From an uncultured Ruminococcus sp. (GTDB lineage Bacteria; Bacillota; Clostridia; Oscillospirales; Acutalibacteraceae), in contig CAJOFK010000008.1 in assembly GCA_905234015.1 (NCBI GenBank), forward strand, positions 1 to 36,302: 36,302 nucleotides of DNA, in the 5' to 3' direction. Both the position numbers and the translations under genes were made by a program. Below the pieces are notes generated by a model. The model did not search any database. It saw only the letters and a program-made list of their open reading frames with translations, and was not told the DNA's origin. Positions 9,815 through 34,681 of this stretch are shown here, in pieces (within the stretch, counting starts at the first letter, position 1; each line of letters begins with the position of its first letter).

Positions 9815-10917
9815 TGGATGCTTTAGCAAAAAACGGTATGCTGAATTACGCTTATCTGCTTAAGCTTATATCCGCCGCAATTAACGAAGCTCAGCCCGAA
9901 GAGCCGGAGCCCGGGGTTAATTTCGGTCAGGTTTATAAAATCGCCTGCTCTCACCTCGTTGAAAACACCGCCTTTTACGCCGTGGAAAAGCTAAAAAACA
10001 AGCCCGAAGCCGGACTTTTCAAGAAGTGGCAGAATAAGCGCAACAAGGCTTTTCACCGCAATATGACTCAGCGCGCGGAGCTTGAGAGCATAAAATCCGC
10101 GTTTAGCTTAAACGGAATCGAATACCTGCCCTTGAAGGGCTTTCCCGTTTGCGACCTTTATCCGCAGAGCGATTACCGCTTTATGAGCGACCTGGACATC
10201 CTCGTAAAGGATATAAAAAAGGCGGATGAAATAATAACCTCCCTCGGCTATGAACCGAAAGAGGTCGGTATGCATCATCACGACGAGTTTTCAAAGCCGC
10301 CGTTTATGTATGTTGAAATTCACCGTGACTTAGTCGGAGCGGATTCCGATTTTTACGACTACTATAAAAAAATATTTGACCGCGCAAAAAGCCTCGGCAG
10401 CTGCGCGTATGAGCTTTCACACGAGGATTTTTACATCTACTCAATTGTCCACCTCGAAAACCACTACGCAAAGGCAGGCACCGGCATACGCTCAATATCG
10501 GACCTCTTCCTTATGAACAAAAAGTTTCTTCCGGGGCTTGATACCGCGTATATCGAGTCCGAGCTCAGAAAGCTGGGGCTCCGGGATTTAAGAAATCTGC
10601 TTTCGGATATTGCGGAAAAATGGTTTAAAAACAACGACTTTACCGACTTTTCCGAGGCGGAGCTGCGGATTCTCTTCAGCGGAGCCTACGGCACGGTTGA
10701 GAATAAAATCAACGCCGCAAAGGGCGACCGCGGCAGCTTCGCTTTTCTTATGCGCAGGATTTTCCCGACGGCTAAGTCTATGAAATGGGTTTTTCCGTGG
10801 CTGAAGGACTATCCGTTTCTGCTTCCGTGGGCATACGTTTACCGTATTTTCCGCGACGGTATCGGAAAGAGAAAGAAAGCGGCTAAGGAAATCAGAAAAC
10901 TTAAACAGAAAAACTGA
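9814..10917 (+). CDS. Nucleotidyltransferase-like protein (NTP_transf_5 family)
   Basis: A 367-residue protein with the family hallmark EYLPLKGFPVCDLYP followed by RFMSDLDILVKD near residue 125, where the D-x-D pair is the expected metal-binding site of a nucleotidyltransferase fold. The His-rich stretch MHHHDEF and IHRDL follow, also usual in this uncharacterised group. The C-terminal 120 residues are helical and basic. Family members often sit beside glycan or peptide-modifying genes, but no biochemical role is established that I can name. It begins inside the stop of the SDR gene (TAATG) and so shares its transcript and probably its process. Confidence 0.8.
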   Translation: MDALAKNGMLNYAYLLKLISAAINEAQPEEPEPGVNFGQVYKIACSHLVENTAFYAVEKLKNKPEAGLFKKWQNKRNKAFHRNMTQRAELESIKSAFSLNGIEYLPLKGFPVCDLYPQSDYRFMSDLDILVKDIKKADEIITSLGYEPKEVGMHHHDEFSKPPFMYVEIHRDLVGADSDFYDYYKKIFDRAKSLGSCAYELSHEDFYIYSIVHLENHYAKAGTGIRSISDLFLMNKKFLPGLDTAYIESELRKLGLRDLRNLLSDIAEKWFKNNDFTDFSEAELRILFSGAYGTVENKINAAKGDRGSFAFLMRRIFPTAKSMKWVFPWLKDYPFLLPWAYVYRIFRDGIGKRKKAAKEIRKLKQKN

Positions 10918-10932
10918 GTTTTACCTGTGATT

Positions 10933-11166
10933 TTGTGAAAAATACTGTCGCTTTTGTGAAAAATGACACCGGCTGCCGGCAGAGTGACAGTAAAGTGACA
11001 GATTGTTTTATCAATCTGTCACCCCGCAAAGCTACTGTTTATGAGGGTTTCAAGACTTAGTGACAGTAAATACAGTAAAAAACACAGAAACTTTTTAAAA
11101 ATGAAAAAAGAATTTTTATTTTTTATAATATTTAAAAACTTTACAAAACGGGGATTTTGCTGTCAC
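10933..11166. repeat. Cluster of GTGACAG/CTGTCAC sites and TTTTGTGAAAAAT repeats
   Basis: The gap between convergent genes holds two copies of TTTTGTGAAAAAT (10933 and 10954), three GTGACAG (10984, 10995, 11060) and two CTGTCAC (11016, 11160). GTGACAGATTG and CAATCTGTCAC (10995-11022) are a perfect 11-bp inverted repeat around TTTTAT. The 12-mer AGTGACAGTAAA occurs twice. The first two GTGACAG sites are 11 bp apart, one helical turn. The hairpin has no T-tract, so it is not a standard terminator. Confidence 0.7.
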
Positions 11167-15977: not shown

Positions 15978-16004
15978 AGGCTGCCGCTTGCTTTGCGGCA
16001 GCCT
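15978..16004 (+). terminator. Terminator-like hairpin after the yfhO-like gene
   Basis: AGGCTGCCGC and GCGGCAGCCT form a perfect 10-bp stem. The following sequence (ATTAATATAC) is T-poor, so some read-through into the next gene, 32 bases on, is possible. Confidence 0.6.
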
Positions 16005-16035
16005 ATTAATATACAAGTTTATTAAGGAGACTATA

Positions 16036-16470
16036 ATGGCTGAGAAAATAAAAATATATCTTGCTTCCCCGTTTTTTAACGAGGAGGAGCTTAAGAACGT
16101 AGAAACTGCCGAAAAAATATTATTCGGACGCGGGTTTGAGGTTTTCAGCCCGAGACTCAACGAGGTTCGCAGCGAGGAAAACATCGGCTCTCCCCTGTGG
16201 TCAAAGGAAATCTTTATGAACGACAGGCGGTTTATCGACTGGGCGGACGCGGTAGTTATGCTCTACTACGGCGGCTACAGCGACAGCGGCACCGCGTGGG
16301 AATGCGGCTACGCCTACGGCACAAACACTCCCGTAGTTGTGGTTCACCTCGGAGAGGACTCCAACCTTATGGTTCACGAGGGCTCTCATACCAACATAAC
16401 TTTAGATGAGTTAAAGACTTACGATTTTAATAAAATGCCCCATAATCAGTATGAGGGCAAGATGTTTTAG
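16036..16470 (+). CDS. Nucleoside 2-deoxyribosyltransferase family protein
   Basis: Swaps or removes bases on deoxynucleosides in nucleotide salvage. The protein (144 residues) opens with KIYLASPFFNEEE, has WADAVVMLYYGGYSDSG and the catalytic Glu in GTAWECGYAYG near residue 95, and ends with the conserved PVVVVH region. The ORF track starts it at 15988, but that ATG lies inside the preceding hairpin. ATG 16036 has AAGGAG seven bases upstream and gives the usual N-terminus and length of the family, so I use it. It may be read partly from the yfhO-like promoter, since no separate promoter is evident in the 65-base gap. Related enzymes act as nucleosidases, so the exact reaction is open. Confidence 0.88.
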   Translation: MAEKIKIYLASPFFNEEELKNVETAEKILFGRGFEVFSPRLNEVRSEENIGSPLWSKEIFMNDRRFIDWADAVVMLYYGGYSDSGTAWECGYAYGTNTPVVVVHLGEDSNLMVHEGSHTNITLDELKTYDFNKMPHNQYEGKMF

Positions 16471-16492
16471 CGATTTGCAATAAACGATTAAC

Positions 16493-16636
16493 AAATTCGG
16501 TCGAGCGTATATGCTGATTAATTATCGGCATTATATGCCCGGCCTTGTTTTATTGAGGGATTCACTTATAAAGCATATAAAATCGGCCGGGAGCTGAGGT
16601 TATCAAAATAACCGTTATGTCTTCCCGACCGAAATT
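16493..16636 (+). other. Cloverleaf-like structured element (candidate RNA or MITE-like palindrome)
   Basis: Four stems nest cleanly. P1 is AAATTCGGTCG (16493-16503) with CGACCGAAATT (16626-16636), 11 bp with one mismatch. P2 is 16511-16531, 8 bp with a U-G pair. P3 is CCCGGCC (16538-16544) with GGCCGGG (16585-16591). P4 is GGTTAT-CAAA-ATAACC (16598-16613). The single-stranded joints are 6, 6, 7 and 12 bases. The U-G pair favours a plus-strand RNA. It fills most of the 192-base gap between convergent genes. No T-tract follows the outer stem, so it is not a plain terminator, and no target-site duplication is evident. Confidence 0.55.
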
Positions 16637-16662
16637 ATCAATTATTAATTTTCAATTGCTGA

Positions 16663-19356
16663 TTAGTTGAGCGCCTCTATCGCTGCCTTAATCATAGCAA
16701 TCTGCTCTCTTTCCTTAGCCGCCTGACCTTTAACCTTTTCAACTACGGCGGCGGGAGCCTTAGCGACAAAGCCCTGATTATTAAGCTTGCCCTCGCTTTG
16801 AGCAAGGCGCTTTTCAACCGCTTTAAGCTCCTTGTTAAGTCTTTCAAGCTCCGCCTTTTTATCTACAAGCTCGTCCATCGGGATGTAGATTTTAGCGTCG
16901 GCAGTTACGGCGTTTACCGCGCCCTGAATATCAAAGCTGTCGCCTGTTTCAACCTCGCTCGCGGAAGCAAGGTGGCAGATAAACTGCGCTCCGTTCTCAA
17001 AAATATCCTTAAACTTAGTCGCGATATAAACCTTAGCCTTCTTTGAGGGCGGTACGTTCATCTCATTTCTGCGGTTGCGGATAGCGCGGATAGCCTCCAT
17101 AATCTTCTCCATGCTGTCAACAGCCTCGGGGAAGTTGAGCGCCTCGTCGTACTTCGGATATTCCTCAAGCATAATCGTCTCGCCGTCAACGGGCAGAGTC
17201 TGCCAGATTTCCTCCGTGATATAAGGCATAAACGGATGCAGAAGCTTTAAAATTTTATCGAGCGTCCAGAGAAGCACCTGACGCGCGTTAGCGGCGGTTT
17301 CGCCCTCGCTCTGAAGTCTTGACTTGCTGAGCTCAATATACCAGTCGCAGAAGCAGTCCCAGATAAAGTCGTAAAGCTTCTGAACGGCTACTCCGAGCTC
17401 GAATTTTTCGAGATTAATATTGATTTCCTTAGCGACTGTATTCAGCGTTGAAACAATCCACTTATCCTCGGTGGTGAGAGTTTCGGGAAGCTCGTTTTTA
17501 ACCTCAAAGTCGTCGATATTCATATGAACGAAACGGCTCGCGTTCCAAAGCTTATTCGCGAAGTTTCCGCACGCCTCAACCTTTTTATCGGAATAACGCA
17601 TATCGTTGCCCGGGGCGTTGCCTGTCGCGAGGAAGAACCTTAACGCGTCGGCGCCGTTTTTCTCGATTACCTCGAGCGGGTCGATTCCGTTTCCGAGGGA
17701 CTTACTCATCTTTACGCCGTTTTCGTCACGAACGATTCCGTGGATAAATACGGTGTCAAACGGCTGGGCATTCATCTGCTCAACAGATGAGAAAATCATT
17801 CTCGCAACCCAGAAGAAGATTATATCATATCCCGTAACGAGCGTACTCGTCGGGAAGAAGTAGTCGAGCTCGGGAGTCTTTTCGGGCCAGCCGAGAGTAG
17901 AGAACGGCCAAAGCGCGGAGCTGAACCATGTATCGAGGGTGTCCTCGTCACGGGTGAGCTTTTTGCTGCCACATTTCGGGCAGGTGTGAGGCTCATCCTT
18001 AGCTACTATTACCTCTCCGCAGTCATCGCAGTACCACGCGGGAATCTGATGGCCCCACCAGAGCTGACGGCTGATACACCAGTCCTTGATATTTTCCATC
18101 CAGTGATAATAGATTTTATCGAAGCGGTCGGGGATGAACTTGGTCTTTCCCTCGCGAACGCACTTAATAGCAGGCTTTGCGAGCGGTTCCATTTTAACGA
18201 ACCACTGCTTGCTTACCATCGGCTCGATAGTAGTGTGACAGCGGTAGCAGGTTCCTACGTCGTGAGTTAAATCCTCTACCTCTTTAAGCGCATTACAAGC
18301 CTTTAAGTCCTCTAAAATAACCTTTCTCGCCTCGTCGGTAGTAAGTCCCGCGTATTTTCCGCAGTCGAGAACCTCAGGCTCGTTTTCAGCGAGGTTGCCC
18401 TTTTTTAGGAGCTCCTCATACTGCTTAACGTCCTCGGCGCCGGTCATATGACCGTCATAGGTAAAGCAGCGTACAATCGGGAGATTGTGGCGCTGGCCTA
18501 CCTCGAAGTCGTTCGGGTCGTGAGCGGGGGTAATCTTAACTACGCCGGTACCCTTTTCCATATCGGCGTGCTCGTCGCATACAATCGGGATTTCCTTATT
18601 TAAAAGCGGTAAAATAACGTGACATCCGTGGAGGTGCTTATAGCGCTCATCCTCGGGGTTAATCGCAACGGCTGTATCGCCGAGCATAGTTTCGGGACGG
18701 GTTGTAGCGAGCTCAAGATACTCGCCCGTCTCCTTAACGGGATAGAGCAGGTGCCAGAAATGACCGTTCTGCTCCTCGTAATCAACCTCTGCGTCGGAAA
18801 TCGAGGTGCAGCAATGCGGACACCAGTTTACCATACGGTTTCCGCGGTAGATTTTTCCGTCATTATAAAGGCGTACGAAAACCTCGTTTACCGCCTTTGA
18901 GCAGCCCTCGTCCATAGTGAAGCGCTCGCGCTCCCAGTCGCAGGACGAGCCAAGCTTTTTAAGCTGCTCGGTAATACGTCCGCCGTATTCCTTTTTCCAG
19001 TCCCACGCTCTTTCGAGGAATTTTTCTCTGCCTAAATCCTCTTTAGTAAGGCCTTCCTTACGCATAGCCTCAACGATTTTAGCCTCGGTTGCGATTGAAG
19101 CGTGGTCGGTTCCGGGAAGCCATAAAGCCGAATAGCCCTGCATTCTTCTCCAGCGGATAAGAATATCCTGGAGGGTTTCGTCGAGGGCGTGACCCATATG
19201 AAGCTGGCCGGTAATATTGGGAGGCGGCATAACGATAGTATAAGGCTTTTTATCCTTATCCACCTCGGCGTGGAAGTAGTTTCCCTTCATCCAAAAATCG
19301 TAAATCCTGTCCTCAAAGTCCTTAGGATTATATGATTTCGCCATTTGATTACTCAT
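16663..19356 (-). CDS. valS: Valyl-tRNA synthetase
   Basis: Charges tRNA-Val with valine in the cytosol. The protein has 897 residues, usual for bacterial ValS. The HIGH box reads HMGH within [17 protein letters not shown] (about residue 50) and the KMSKS box is exact ([10 protein letters not shown], about residue 550). The editing domain lies between them, and a Cys-rich zinc-finger-like region ([17 protein letters not shown]) precedes the KMSKS part. The C-terminal coiled coil ([20 protein letters not shown]) is the known tRNA-binding arm of ValRS. The start [11 protein letters not shown] is supported by AAAGGA eight bases upstream. It is controlled by a T-box leader (19392-19632) and transcribed from its own sigma-A promoter. 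Confidence 0.98.
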
Positions 19357-19391: not shown

Positions 19392-19632
19392 TGAAACAGC
19401 CCCGAGCATAAGCTCGGGGCGAACATAGTCCGTGGTACCACCCAAGTTCGGAAATAAAAATTTCCGCTCTCTGCCGATATAACGGTCGAACCCGTTCAGA
19501 CCTACTGCGATTTCAGCCTGAAAGCTCAGAGGCTACATCCGGAAATCCCTCGCGAAAGCTTACACCGACCGCTTCCTCTCTGAGCCTCGGGATAAACGAA
19601 CCTCCTCGTCAAAGCCTGTTTTTATTTAACTA
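19392..19632 (-). promoter_or_regulatory. T-box riboswitch leader of valS
   Basis: Read on the minus strand, it holds the near-invariant T-box GGGTGGTACCACGG (19443-19430), whose TGGT bulge would pair with the ACCA end of uncharged tRNA-Val. A terminator follows: GCCCCGAGC/GCTCGGGGC (19420-19399) and TGTTTCATT. Upstream are Stem I (GCTCAGAG pairs with CTCTGAGC; AGAGAGGAAGC and GGTCGGTGTAAGC resemble the AG-bulge and apical loop) and a Stem III hairpin (CGGAAAT/ATTTCCG). The specifier is best read as GTA (Val) at 19536-19534; that single codon is tentative, the class is not. Confidence 0.95.
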
Positions 19633-31747: not shown

Positions 31748-34123
31748 ATGATAAAATATAAGGTTAAAGAAGTTGCGGACGATTTTAACGTAAAAAGTAA
31801 GGTAATTACGGAACTCCTTTCCAAGCATTGCGGAGTAAACAAAAAGTCTATGACCTCCCTTGAGACTGAGGAGCTTAACGTTATTTTCGACGTTATGACG
31901 AGCGAAAACGCGCTTAAGGATTTTTCGGCGTATTTCGCAGTCCGCGATAAGGCGGTTGAGGAATATGAGAAGCAGGCCGCTCAGGAAGTAAAGGAAATCA
32001 AAGAGGAAAAGCCTAAGCGTAAGGAAATTCCTGTTGAGAAAAAGGAAACCAAGCCCTCTAAGAAACCGGGCGAAAAGGCTAAGAACGTTAAAGGCAAACC
32101 CGAAAAGGTCGAGGTTGTCAATACTATTGAGGAGGAAAGGTCCGATAACCGTTCCAACAGACGCGTTATCGATACCCGCCAGTCCAACGTCGACGTAGAA
32201 AGATATAACCAGAAATACGACGATATGGCGAACGAAAAGCTCCGCCGTAATCAGGATACAAGCAAAAAACAGAAATTCACAAACCGCGCCCGCAAGCAGC
32301 GCCAGCGCCGCGGCGGCAAGCGCGAGACCGAGGCTCAGAGACTCGCACGTATCGAGAAGCAGCGTAAGGAACGTCCTATCACCATTACCATCCCGGACGA
32401 AATCGTTGTTTCCGAGCTCGCTTCACGCCTTAAGGCGACTGTTGCCGAGGTAGTTAAAAAGGCTTTCCTGATGGGCTCTATGATTACTGCCAACGATACT
32501 GTTGACTACGATACAGCCGAGCTCATCGCTATGGAATTTAACGCCAAGGTTGAAAAAGAGGTAGTAGTTACTATCGAGGAGAGAATTATCGACGACAGCG
32601 AGGACGACGATACCAACCTCGAGCCCAGAGCTCCGATTGTTGTTGTTATGGGTCACGTTGACCACGGTAAGACCTCTATCCTCGACGCTATCCGCCACGC
32701 CAATGTTACCGAAGGCGAGGCAGGCGGTATCACTCAGCATATCGGCGCATACAGAACTATCGTAAACGACCAGCCGATTACCTTCCTCGATACCCCGGGA
32801 CACGAAGCGTTTACCACAATGAGAGCGCGAGGCGCTCAGGCTACGGATATCGCTATCCTCGTTGTAGCCGCGGACGACGGTATTATGCCCCAGACGGTTG
32901 AAGCTATCAACCACGCTAAAGCGGCAGGCGTTACCGTAATTGTCGCTATTAATAAAATGGATAAACCCGGCGCAAACGCCGACCAGGTTAAGCAGCAGCT
33001 CACAGAATATGAGCTTATTCCCGAGGAATGGGGCGGAGATGTTATCTGCGTACCTGTTTCCGCTAAGACTAAGGAAGGCCTTGACGACCTTCTCGAAAGC
33101 GTACTGCTCGTAGCCGAGATGAAGGAGCTTAAGGCTAATCCCGACAGAGCGGCTAAGGGTATCGTAATTGAGGCTCGTCTTGATAAGGGCAGAGGTCCTA
33201 TCGCAACCGTACTCGTTCAGAACGGTACTCTCAATGCAGGAGATACCGTAGTTGCCGGCACCTGCTTAGGAAGAGTCCGGGCTATGACCAATGATAAGGG
33301 CGAAAAGGTTGAAAGCGCAGGCCCGTCCGTACCCGTAGAGATTATCGGTCTCGACGAGGTTCCCGTAGGCGGAGATATATTCAACACAGTTACAAACGAG
33401 CACCTTGCTCGCCAGCTCGTTCAGCAGCGTAAGGATGAGCGTAAGGAGGAAATCTTCAACGCTCAGACCAAGGTTACTCTCGATAACCTCTTTGACCAGA
33501 TGAAGCAGGGCGAGATGAAGGAGCTGAAGATTATCGTTAAGGCTGACGTTCAGGGCTCGGTTGAGGCAGTTCGCCAGAGTCTCGAGAAGCTCACTAACGA
33601 GGAAGTTCGTGTTAACGTAATTCACGGCGCGGTAGGCGCGGTTAACGAGAGCGACGTTATGCTCGCGAACGCCTCCAACGCTATTATCGTAGGCTTTAAC
33701 GTACGTCCCGATTCAAACGCTCAGAGCAGCGCAGAGCGCGACGGCGTAGATATGCGTATGTACCGCGTAATCTACGACTGCATCGAGGAAATCGAGAGCG
33801 CTATGAAGGGTATGCTCGCGCCTAAGACGAGAGAGGTTGAGCTCGGTACCGCCGAGGTCCGCAACGTTATCAAGATTAAGAGCGTCGGCACAATCGCAGG
33901 CTCCTACGTTAAGAAGGGTAAGATTAAGCGCGACGGTTTGGTTCGAGTTGTCCGCGACGGTATTATTATTGCCGACGACAATATCGCTTCGCTCCAGCGC
34001 TTTAAGGACTCCGTTAAGGAAGTTGCCGAGGGCTACGAGTGCGGTATCTGCCTTGAAAAATTCAGCGACCTTAAGGAAGGCGACGTTTTCGAGGTTTACG
34101 AGATAGAGGAATACAGGGACTAA
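31748..34123 (+). CDS. infB: Translation initiation factor IF-2
   Basis: GTPase that brings initiator tRNA to the 30S subunit and promotes subunit joining. The protein has 791 residues. The N-terminal IF2_N motif [19 protein letters not shown] is followed by a long Lys/Glu/Arg-rich linker (about 75-215) and a second N-domain. The G domain has GHVDHGKTS (about 301), DTPGHEAF and NKMD. The C-terminal IF2-specific domains contain [17 protein letters not shown] and [12 protein letters not shown], and end with FEVYEIEE. Full length, with an AGGAGG ribosome site. The gap after it is unusually long for this operon (192 bases). Confidence 0.98.
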
Positions 34124-34315
34124 CCCGGAGCCCGCGAGCCGATTCCGCCTTGCACTAAACGTTCGGAGGATATGACAATTCAGAAAGGAACGTCCACGTT
34201 TATAGTCTACAGCAGAACCTGTCCTCCCTATCCAAAACCTGACATTGACTGAAAGGTACGGGAGATATGGTCTTAAAAGAGGGACTGCACAGTTTGACGT
34301 GGACACATAAAAATA
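34124..34315 (+). other. Structured spacer between infB and rbfA, no Shine-Dalgarno near rbfA
   Basis: In an otherwise overlapping operon this gap is 192 bases. GTCCACGT (34192-34199) and ACGTGGAC (34297-34304) are exact inverted copies. ACGTTC (34159) and GAACGT (34188) form another stem, and CTCCC/GGGAG a third. A degenerate repeat is visible: AAACGTTCGGAGGATATGA (34157) against AAAGGTACGGGAGATATGG (34252). Two mini-ORFs (34172-34252, 26 codons; 34267-34326, 19 codons) start right after these GGAG motifs. No ribosome site lies 5-12 bases before rbfA; AAAGGA lies just outside the 5' arm of the outer stem. Confidence 0.5.
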
Positions 34316-34681
34316 ATGGGACATAAGATTGAAAGGACTACCGAGGATATAAAGAGAGAGCTTACGGCGATTTTCCGCGAGCTTAAGGACCCGCGCGTTA
34401 AAGACGCGTTCATCTCGATTATCCGTGTAGAGGTAACCAACGACCTGTCCTACTGTACGGTATATGTCAGCGCAATTGAGGGAATGGAGCGCTGTAAGCT
34501 CGCTTGCAAAGGGCTCGACAGCGCAAAGGGCTTCATACGCAGGGAGCTCGGCCACAGGCTCAGGCTCCGCCACGTTCCCGAGCTGATATTCACCGCCAGC
34601 GACAGCATTGAATACAGCGCGAATATTTCGCGGATTTTAAACGATTTAGATATTAAGGACGACGATAATTATGACTCTTAA
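34316..34681 (+). CDS. rbfA: 30S ribosome-binding factor RbfA
   Basis: Cold-shock factor needed for 16S rRNA 5'-end maturation. The 121 residues match RbfA closely from the first residues (IERTTEDIKRELTAIFRELKDPRV), through RVEVTNDLSYCTVYVSAI and GFIRRELGHRLRLRHVPEL, to the C-terminal DSIEYSANISRIL. That N-terminal match fixes the start at 34316 even though no Shine-Dalgarno sequence is seen close to it. It overlaps the next gene by 11 bases. Confidence 0.95.
   Translation: MGHKIERTTEDIKRELTAIFRELKDPRVKDAFISIIRVEVTNDLSYCTVYVSAIEGMERCKLACKGLDSAKGFIRRELGHRLRLRHVPELIFTASDSIEYSANISRILNDLDIKDDDNYDS

Follow-up and report, generated by a model that had tools for sequence, protein, structure and literature searches.

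What is the palindrome of 144 nucleotides that lies between two convergent genes at 16493-16636 of the window, the whole stretch of 36,302 nt analysed here from an uncultured Ruminococcus sp.? The initial annotation had described it as a cloverleaf and had left three options, namely a new small RNA, a 3'-UTR protector and a MITE-like palindrome. A well-folding intergenic palindrome need not be a new RNA, and the reading favoured here, with a probability of about 0.8, is that the feature is a copy of a dispersed, non-autonomous, REPIN/MITE-like palindromic family, specific to the genus of R. bromii, spread in trans and probably having a side role at gene 3' ends.

The locus, its parts and its folds

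Both the coordinates and the placement between convergent genes were correct, a deoxyribosyltransferase-like ORF facing valS. The element itself is real but larger than 16493-16636, its 7-bp-periodic inverted flanks reaching to about 16469-16660. Its parts and neighbours are listed below, R1 being a model built from a single-orientation alignment of 11 units of the host genome, two of them from the window element.

15988..16470, plus strand: nucleoside 2-deoxyribosyltransferase-like gene (PF05014, E 5.7e-19), 3' end toward the element
16469..16498: outer flank on the left, (ATTAACA)-like, an imperfect inverted match to the right flank
16499..16544, plus strand: left palindromic unit, 46 nt, GGTCGAG...CCCGGCC, inner sequence diverged (R1 match)
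16545..16584: spacer, 40 nt, which begins with TTGTTTTATT right after the left hairpin (from the sequence; other doublets have spacers of like length)
16585..16630, minus strand: right palindromic unit, 46 nt, in inverted orientation (R1 match and blastn)
16631..16660: right outer flank, (AATTATC)n heptamer array (Tandem Repeats Finder)
16663..19356, minus strand: valS (PF00133, E 9.6e-147, plus Val_tRNA-synt_C), 3' end toward the element

Two 46-nt palindromic units, with starts 86 bp apart, form an inverted doublet at the locus. R1 matches the left unit at 16494-16549 on the plus strand (43 bits, E 1.6e-11, R1 itself including the left-unit sequence) and the right unit at 16580-16635 on the minus strand (65.5 bits, E 6.3e-19); the right unit also has model-free blastn matches elsewhere in the host genome, the best with E 8.8e-8. 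Terminal inverted repeats are present as two arms of 35 nt, 16469-16503 and 16626-16660, which are 71% complementary, and the AATTATC array at 16633-16657 has a period of 7 and 3.6 copies according to Tandem Repeats Finder. Just upstream of valS there is a T-box leader (19412-19621, minus strand; Rfam RF00230, 112.6 bits).

The inverted repeats are real, for the 144 nt fold far beyond chance on both strands: the plus strand reaches -52.8 kcal/mol (z -5.15), none of 200 dinucleotide shuffles being as stable, and the minus strand -40.8 kcal/mol (z -3.62, against 200 dinucleotide shuffles). As plus-strand RNA, three hairpins in a row (-52.8 kcal/mol) compete with the closed four-way form (-52.1), in which the closing stem has a probability of about 0.28; the closed form is the minimum for minus-strand RNA and for single-stranded DNA of both strands. 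The four-way junction that had been proposed survives, in other words, as a near-tied fold of plus-strand RNA and as the minimum of single-stranded DNA, but three hairpins in a row are slightly better as plus-strand RNA, and the 11-bp closing stem exists with 10 of 11 pairs and one A-A mismatch. The cloverleaf symmetry arises because the locus consists of two inverted copies of the 46-nt palindromic unit, in which each arm has more than one possible partner. Likewise, the argument that a U-G pair favours plus-strand RNA is weak, because units of either orientation are found throughout the genome.

A family of paired units and its distribution

Dispersal is a direct observation. In the host genome, a draft of 86 contigs that is 89% complete, plain blastn without a model returns 10 other partial matches to the element, and R1 returns 95 matches at E<=1, corresponding to 68 distinct places in 51 clusters. 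The places are intergenic, 5 clusters overlapping short ORF calls only, as expected of a multi-copy extragenic palindrome of the REP type. The unit consensus ends with ATTTCGGTCGGG...CCCGACCGTATT. The doublet architecture is equally plain: all 17 doublets of the host genome have a plus unit followed by a minus unit, at a spacing of 80-87 bp in 11 of them. On both sides the outer flanks of the family are 7-bp repeat arrays of several sequence types, which show an identity of 0.60 at a lag of 7 and 0.53 at a lag of 14, versus roughly 0.25 for most other lags. Local duplication accounts for part of the spread, as two identical units 238 bp apart on contig C64 indicate.

Some further arrangements accompany the doublets. 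In the relative G025 (L200, G025:C64:1-560), near-identical units stand in tandem and in the same orientation with an exact period of 86 bp. At L089:2100-2300 and at L082:4900-5020 a truncated unit (...CGGATC), a heptamer array and a complete unit are joined, and the recurrence of the identical junction at two sites suggests nested or template-switched copies. The G000 contigs C7, C27, C47, C72, C79, C80 and C85, and many contigs of G005, end no more than a few hundred bases from units, which suggests that assemblies break at these repeats.

The cloverleaf was also considered as the fold of the whole family and rejected: in 27 doublets the local pairing of arms averages 0.57 as RNA and 0.56 as DNA, versus 0.33 and 0.27 for pairing across units. 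In a scan of 38 doublets, a few of which are tandem or chance pairs, the base just outside GTCGGG has a local partner in 56 of 76 cases and a partner in the other unit in 31 of 76 (p 7e-5, indicative only because the sequences are related); on these predicted pairings, local hairpins are better supported across the family than the cross-unit cloverleaf.

R1 matches at E<=1e-5 occur in 16 of the 40 genomes of the R. bromii genus, with 1 to 64 per genome. The counts are patchy (64, 50, 30, 22 and so on), and they are zero in the other 24 genomes, several of which are 99-100% complete; no R1 match at E<=1e-6 was found in 196 other genomes of the order. When 84,980 species were scanned with a DNA pattern, the matches listed were almost all records of Ruminococcus or Clostridia, R. 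bromii ATCC 27255 among them.

Empty sites and species-specific sites are observed directly. Contig C64 is syntenic with relatives, in which gaps A, C and D are shorter and carry no units. Among unit-facing gene ends elsewhere, 3 of 128 have an ortholog that faces a unit in the host genome, against about 3.6 expected by chance (the estimate of this analysis, given 51 ends of this kind in about 1,800 genes). At the valS gap, the sister species G043 retains the same two genes, between which there is a single 46-nt palindrome that lacks heptamers and has another inner sequence; valS of most other species lies next to a different gene, and an ordinary hairpin follows it. Judged by these comparisons, the positions of units are lineage-specific, not conserved. 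The initial annotation had named scattered copies with a target duplication as the mark of a MITE: copies are found, but the flanks of the empty sites are too diverged for a duplication to be read, G043, the closest genome with the same gene order, differing strongly between genes. Of the three options, the MITE-like palindrome is the best supported, by the scattered copies, the species-specific positions and the empty sites.

Gene ends and rival explanations

The bias toward gene 3' ends is also a direct observation. The 51 clusters comprise 23 in tandem gaps, 11 in convergent and 6 in divergent ones, 6 at contig ends and the 5 with short ORF calls (gene context was taken from fetched genome stretches and a simple ORF caller); in 22 of the 23 tandem gaps the cluster is nearer to the stop of the upstream gene (p 6e-6). 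Such a bias is compatible with promoter avoidance or with a useful function at the 3' end. The closing stem indeed has no T-tract after it, as had been noted; yet on the plus strand TTGTTTTATT comes directly after the left hairpin, and on the minus strand GATTTTAT comes after the right one. From the left hairpin and the tract after it, copies may serve as transcript terminators; the same tract, together with a mean of 4.9 T in the first ten bases inside doublets versus 4.1 outside, makes termination plausible. A 3'-end role is likewise plausible as a secondary effect of the element.

Could the units be, first and foremost, intrinsic terminators that work in both directions on convergent and tandem genes, and that share sequence through gene conversion or local copying and not through transposition? 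The 3'-end bias speaks for it, as do the several units that start 35 nt or less from a stop codon and leave little space for another terminator, the good T-tracts on some single units (C12, TTTTCTTTTT; C21, GGTTTTTTAG; units of G031) and the unit retained in the valS gap of the sister species. Yet at site D the host gene's own ordinary terminator precedes the insert, site C is a promoter gap between divergent genes, 6 clusters lie in divergent gaps, and paired inverted units with heptamer arrays are not needed for termination. Moreover, a simple terminator scan called neither hairpin in the element, and of the inner flanks no more than 34%, of the outer ones 7%, have at least 6 T in the first 10 bases. 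This explanation is judged unlikely.

Far less probable still is one structured RNA, regulatory or small, that would form a four-way junction and be conserved at this locus. The folding is strong (z -5.15), the four-way form is near-isoenergetic as RNA, and the outer and inner arms of the window copy pair well across units; dozens of unrelated gaps carry units, however, and the doublet is missing from the sister gap, where the single palindrome of different inner sequence speaks against a new dedicated small RNA. Neither the conserved position nor the covarying stems expected of a locus-specific structured RNA are seen in that gap or in the orthologous gene ends, the preference for local pairing over cross-unit pairing in the family tells against the junction, and Rfam, at gathering and relaxed thresholds, gave nothing meaningful at the element and no match near threshold. 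As for a chance palindrome in AT-rich intergenic DNA, the general AT-richness of the gaps is all that can be said for it; with no shuffle as stable as the element, and with a copy number that refutes it, its probability is close to nil.

Known repeats and the search for a candidate mobiliser

By its layout the family is closest to REPINs; it is filed as REPIN/MITE-like and is a member of neither. REPINs or REP doublets (Pseudomonas, E. coli BIME) have preferred spacings of 71 and 110 bp (PMC3116915). In common with them, the family has short extragenic palindromes in inverted doublets at a preferred spacing (84-86 bp here), a hairpin-capable spacer, singlets beside doublets and a patchy presence across species; it differs in its 46-bp unit, in its outer heptamer arrays and in having no GTAG tag, and, unlike with REPINs, no Y1/RAYT transposase was found in the host genome or in several unit-rich relatives. 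The CGTC-tagged REPs (PMC3733652), of which the main text of the report never mentions Firmicutes, are similar in that their palindromes are often dimeric and without a known dedicated transposase, whereas no CGTC tag stands at the unit end here. With MITEs the family shares a length of about 190 bp, the lack of an ORF, inverted ends and scattered intergenic positions, but at its inverted ends it has heptamer arrays, of several sequence types, in place of one fixed TIR. The STRR of cyanobacteria are heptameric intergenic repeats. So are the TAACTGA arrays (PMC4679880). In both, as here, 7-bp tandem arrays lie between genes; here, in contrast, the heptamers flank palindromic units within a composite. 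Searches of the open-access literature for such repeats in Ruminococcus or Faecalibacterium gave no report on point.

The full element consists of a heptamer array, a 46-bp unit, a spacer of about 30-40 nt with a small hairpin, an inverted unit and a complementary heptamer array. We infer that it transposes by means of a trans-acting enzyme, which would work on a single-stranded fold, as with a REPIN or MITE, such that new intergenic sites are reached via the fold of the element's single strand. Insertion would be tolerated mainly just downstream of genes, where the GC-rich hairpins with their T-rich inner flanks could double as terminators or 3'-end stabilisers.

The RAYT-type domain PF01797 (Y1_Tnp) is absent from the host genome, from the unit-rich G005 (100% complete) and from G025, G028, G034 and G045. 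As a candidate mobiliser it was rejected: it exceeds the cut-off in 7 of 16 unit-positive versus 14 of 24 unit-negative genomes, and therefore has no positive link to unit content. Among the ORFs next to units there is no recurrent transposase or mobile gene; they are ordinary orthologs, e.g. dockerin proteins and sigma factors (named tentatively from sequence). A bolder reading, which we hold to be doubtful, would see in the family a RAYT-less REPIN-like class in Bacillota, with composite heptamer and 46-bp ends that are recognised either by an enzyme not yet described or through replication-linked template switching, and with copies that are portable bidirectional terminators for convergent genes.

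Repeats of the REPIN-like kind affect both the 3' ends of genes and the plasticity of genomes, and near them assemblies of these genomes are often interrupted; a RAYT-less family of this kind in a keystone genus of gut and rumen would offer a system for asking what moves the elements and whether they supply terminators.

Other repeats are found in the same genomes. At 34151-34319, between an infB-like gene ending at 34123 and the next gene, lies another dispersed repeat of a different sequence family, with 20 further partial matches in the host genome. The stretch 11028-11146 has matches of 75-81% at L082:10110-10229, at L089:2426-2536 and at the start of contig C7 (L091), adjoining a unit in the latter two, and is possibly a third repeat family. 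A further short repeat, at L082:7704-7769 and 9972-10038, has many copies in the relative G008, with 85-95% identity.
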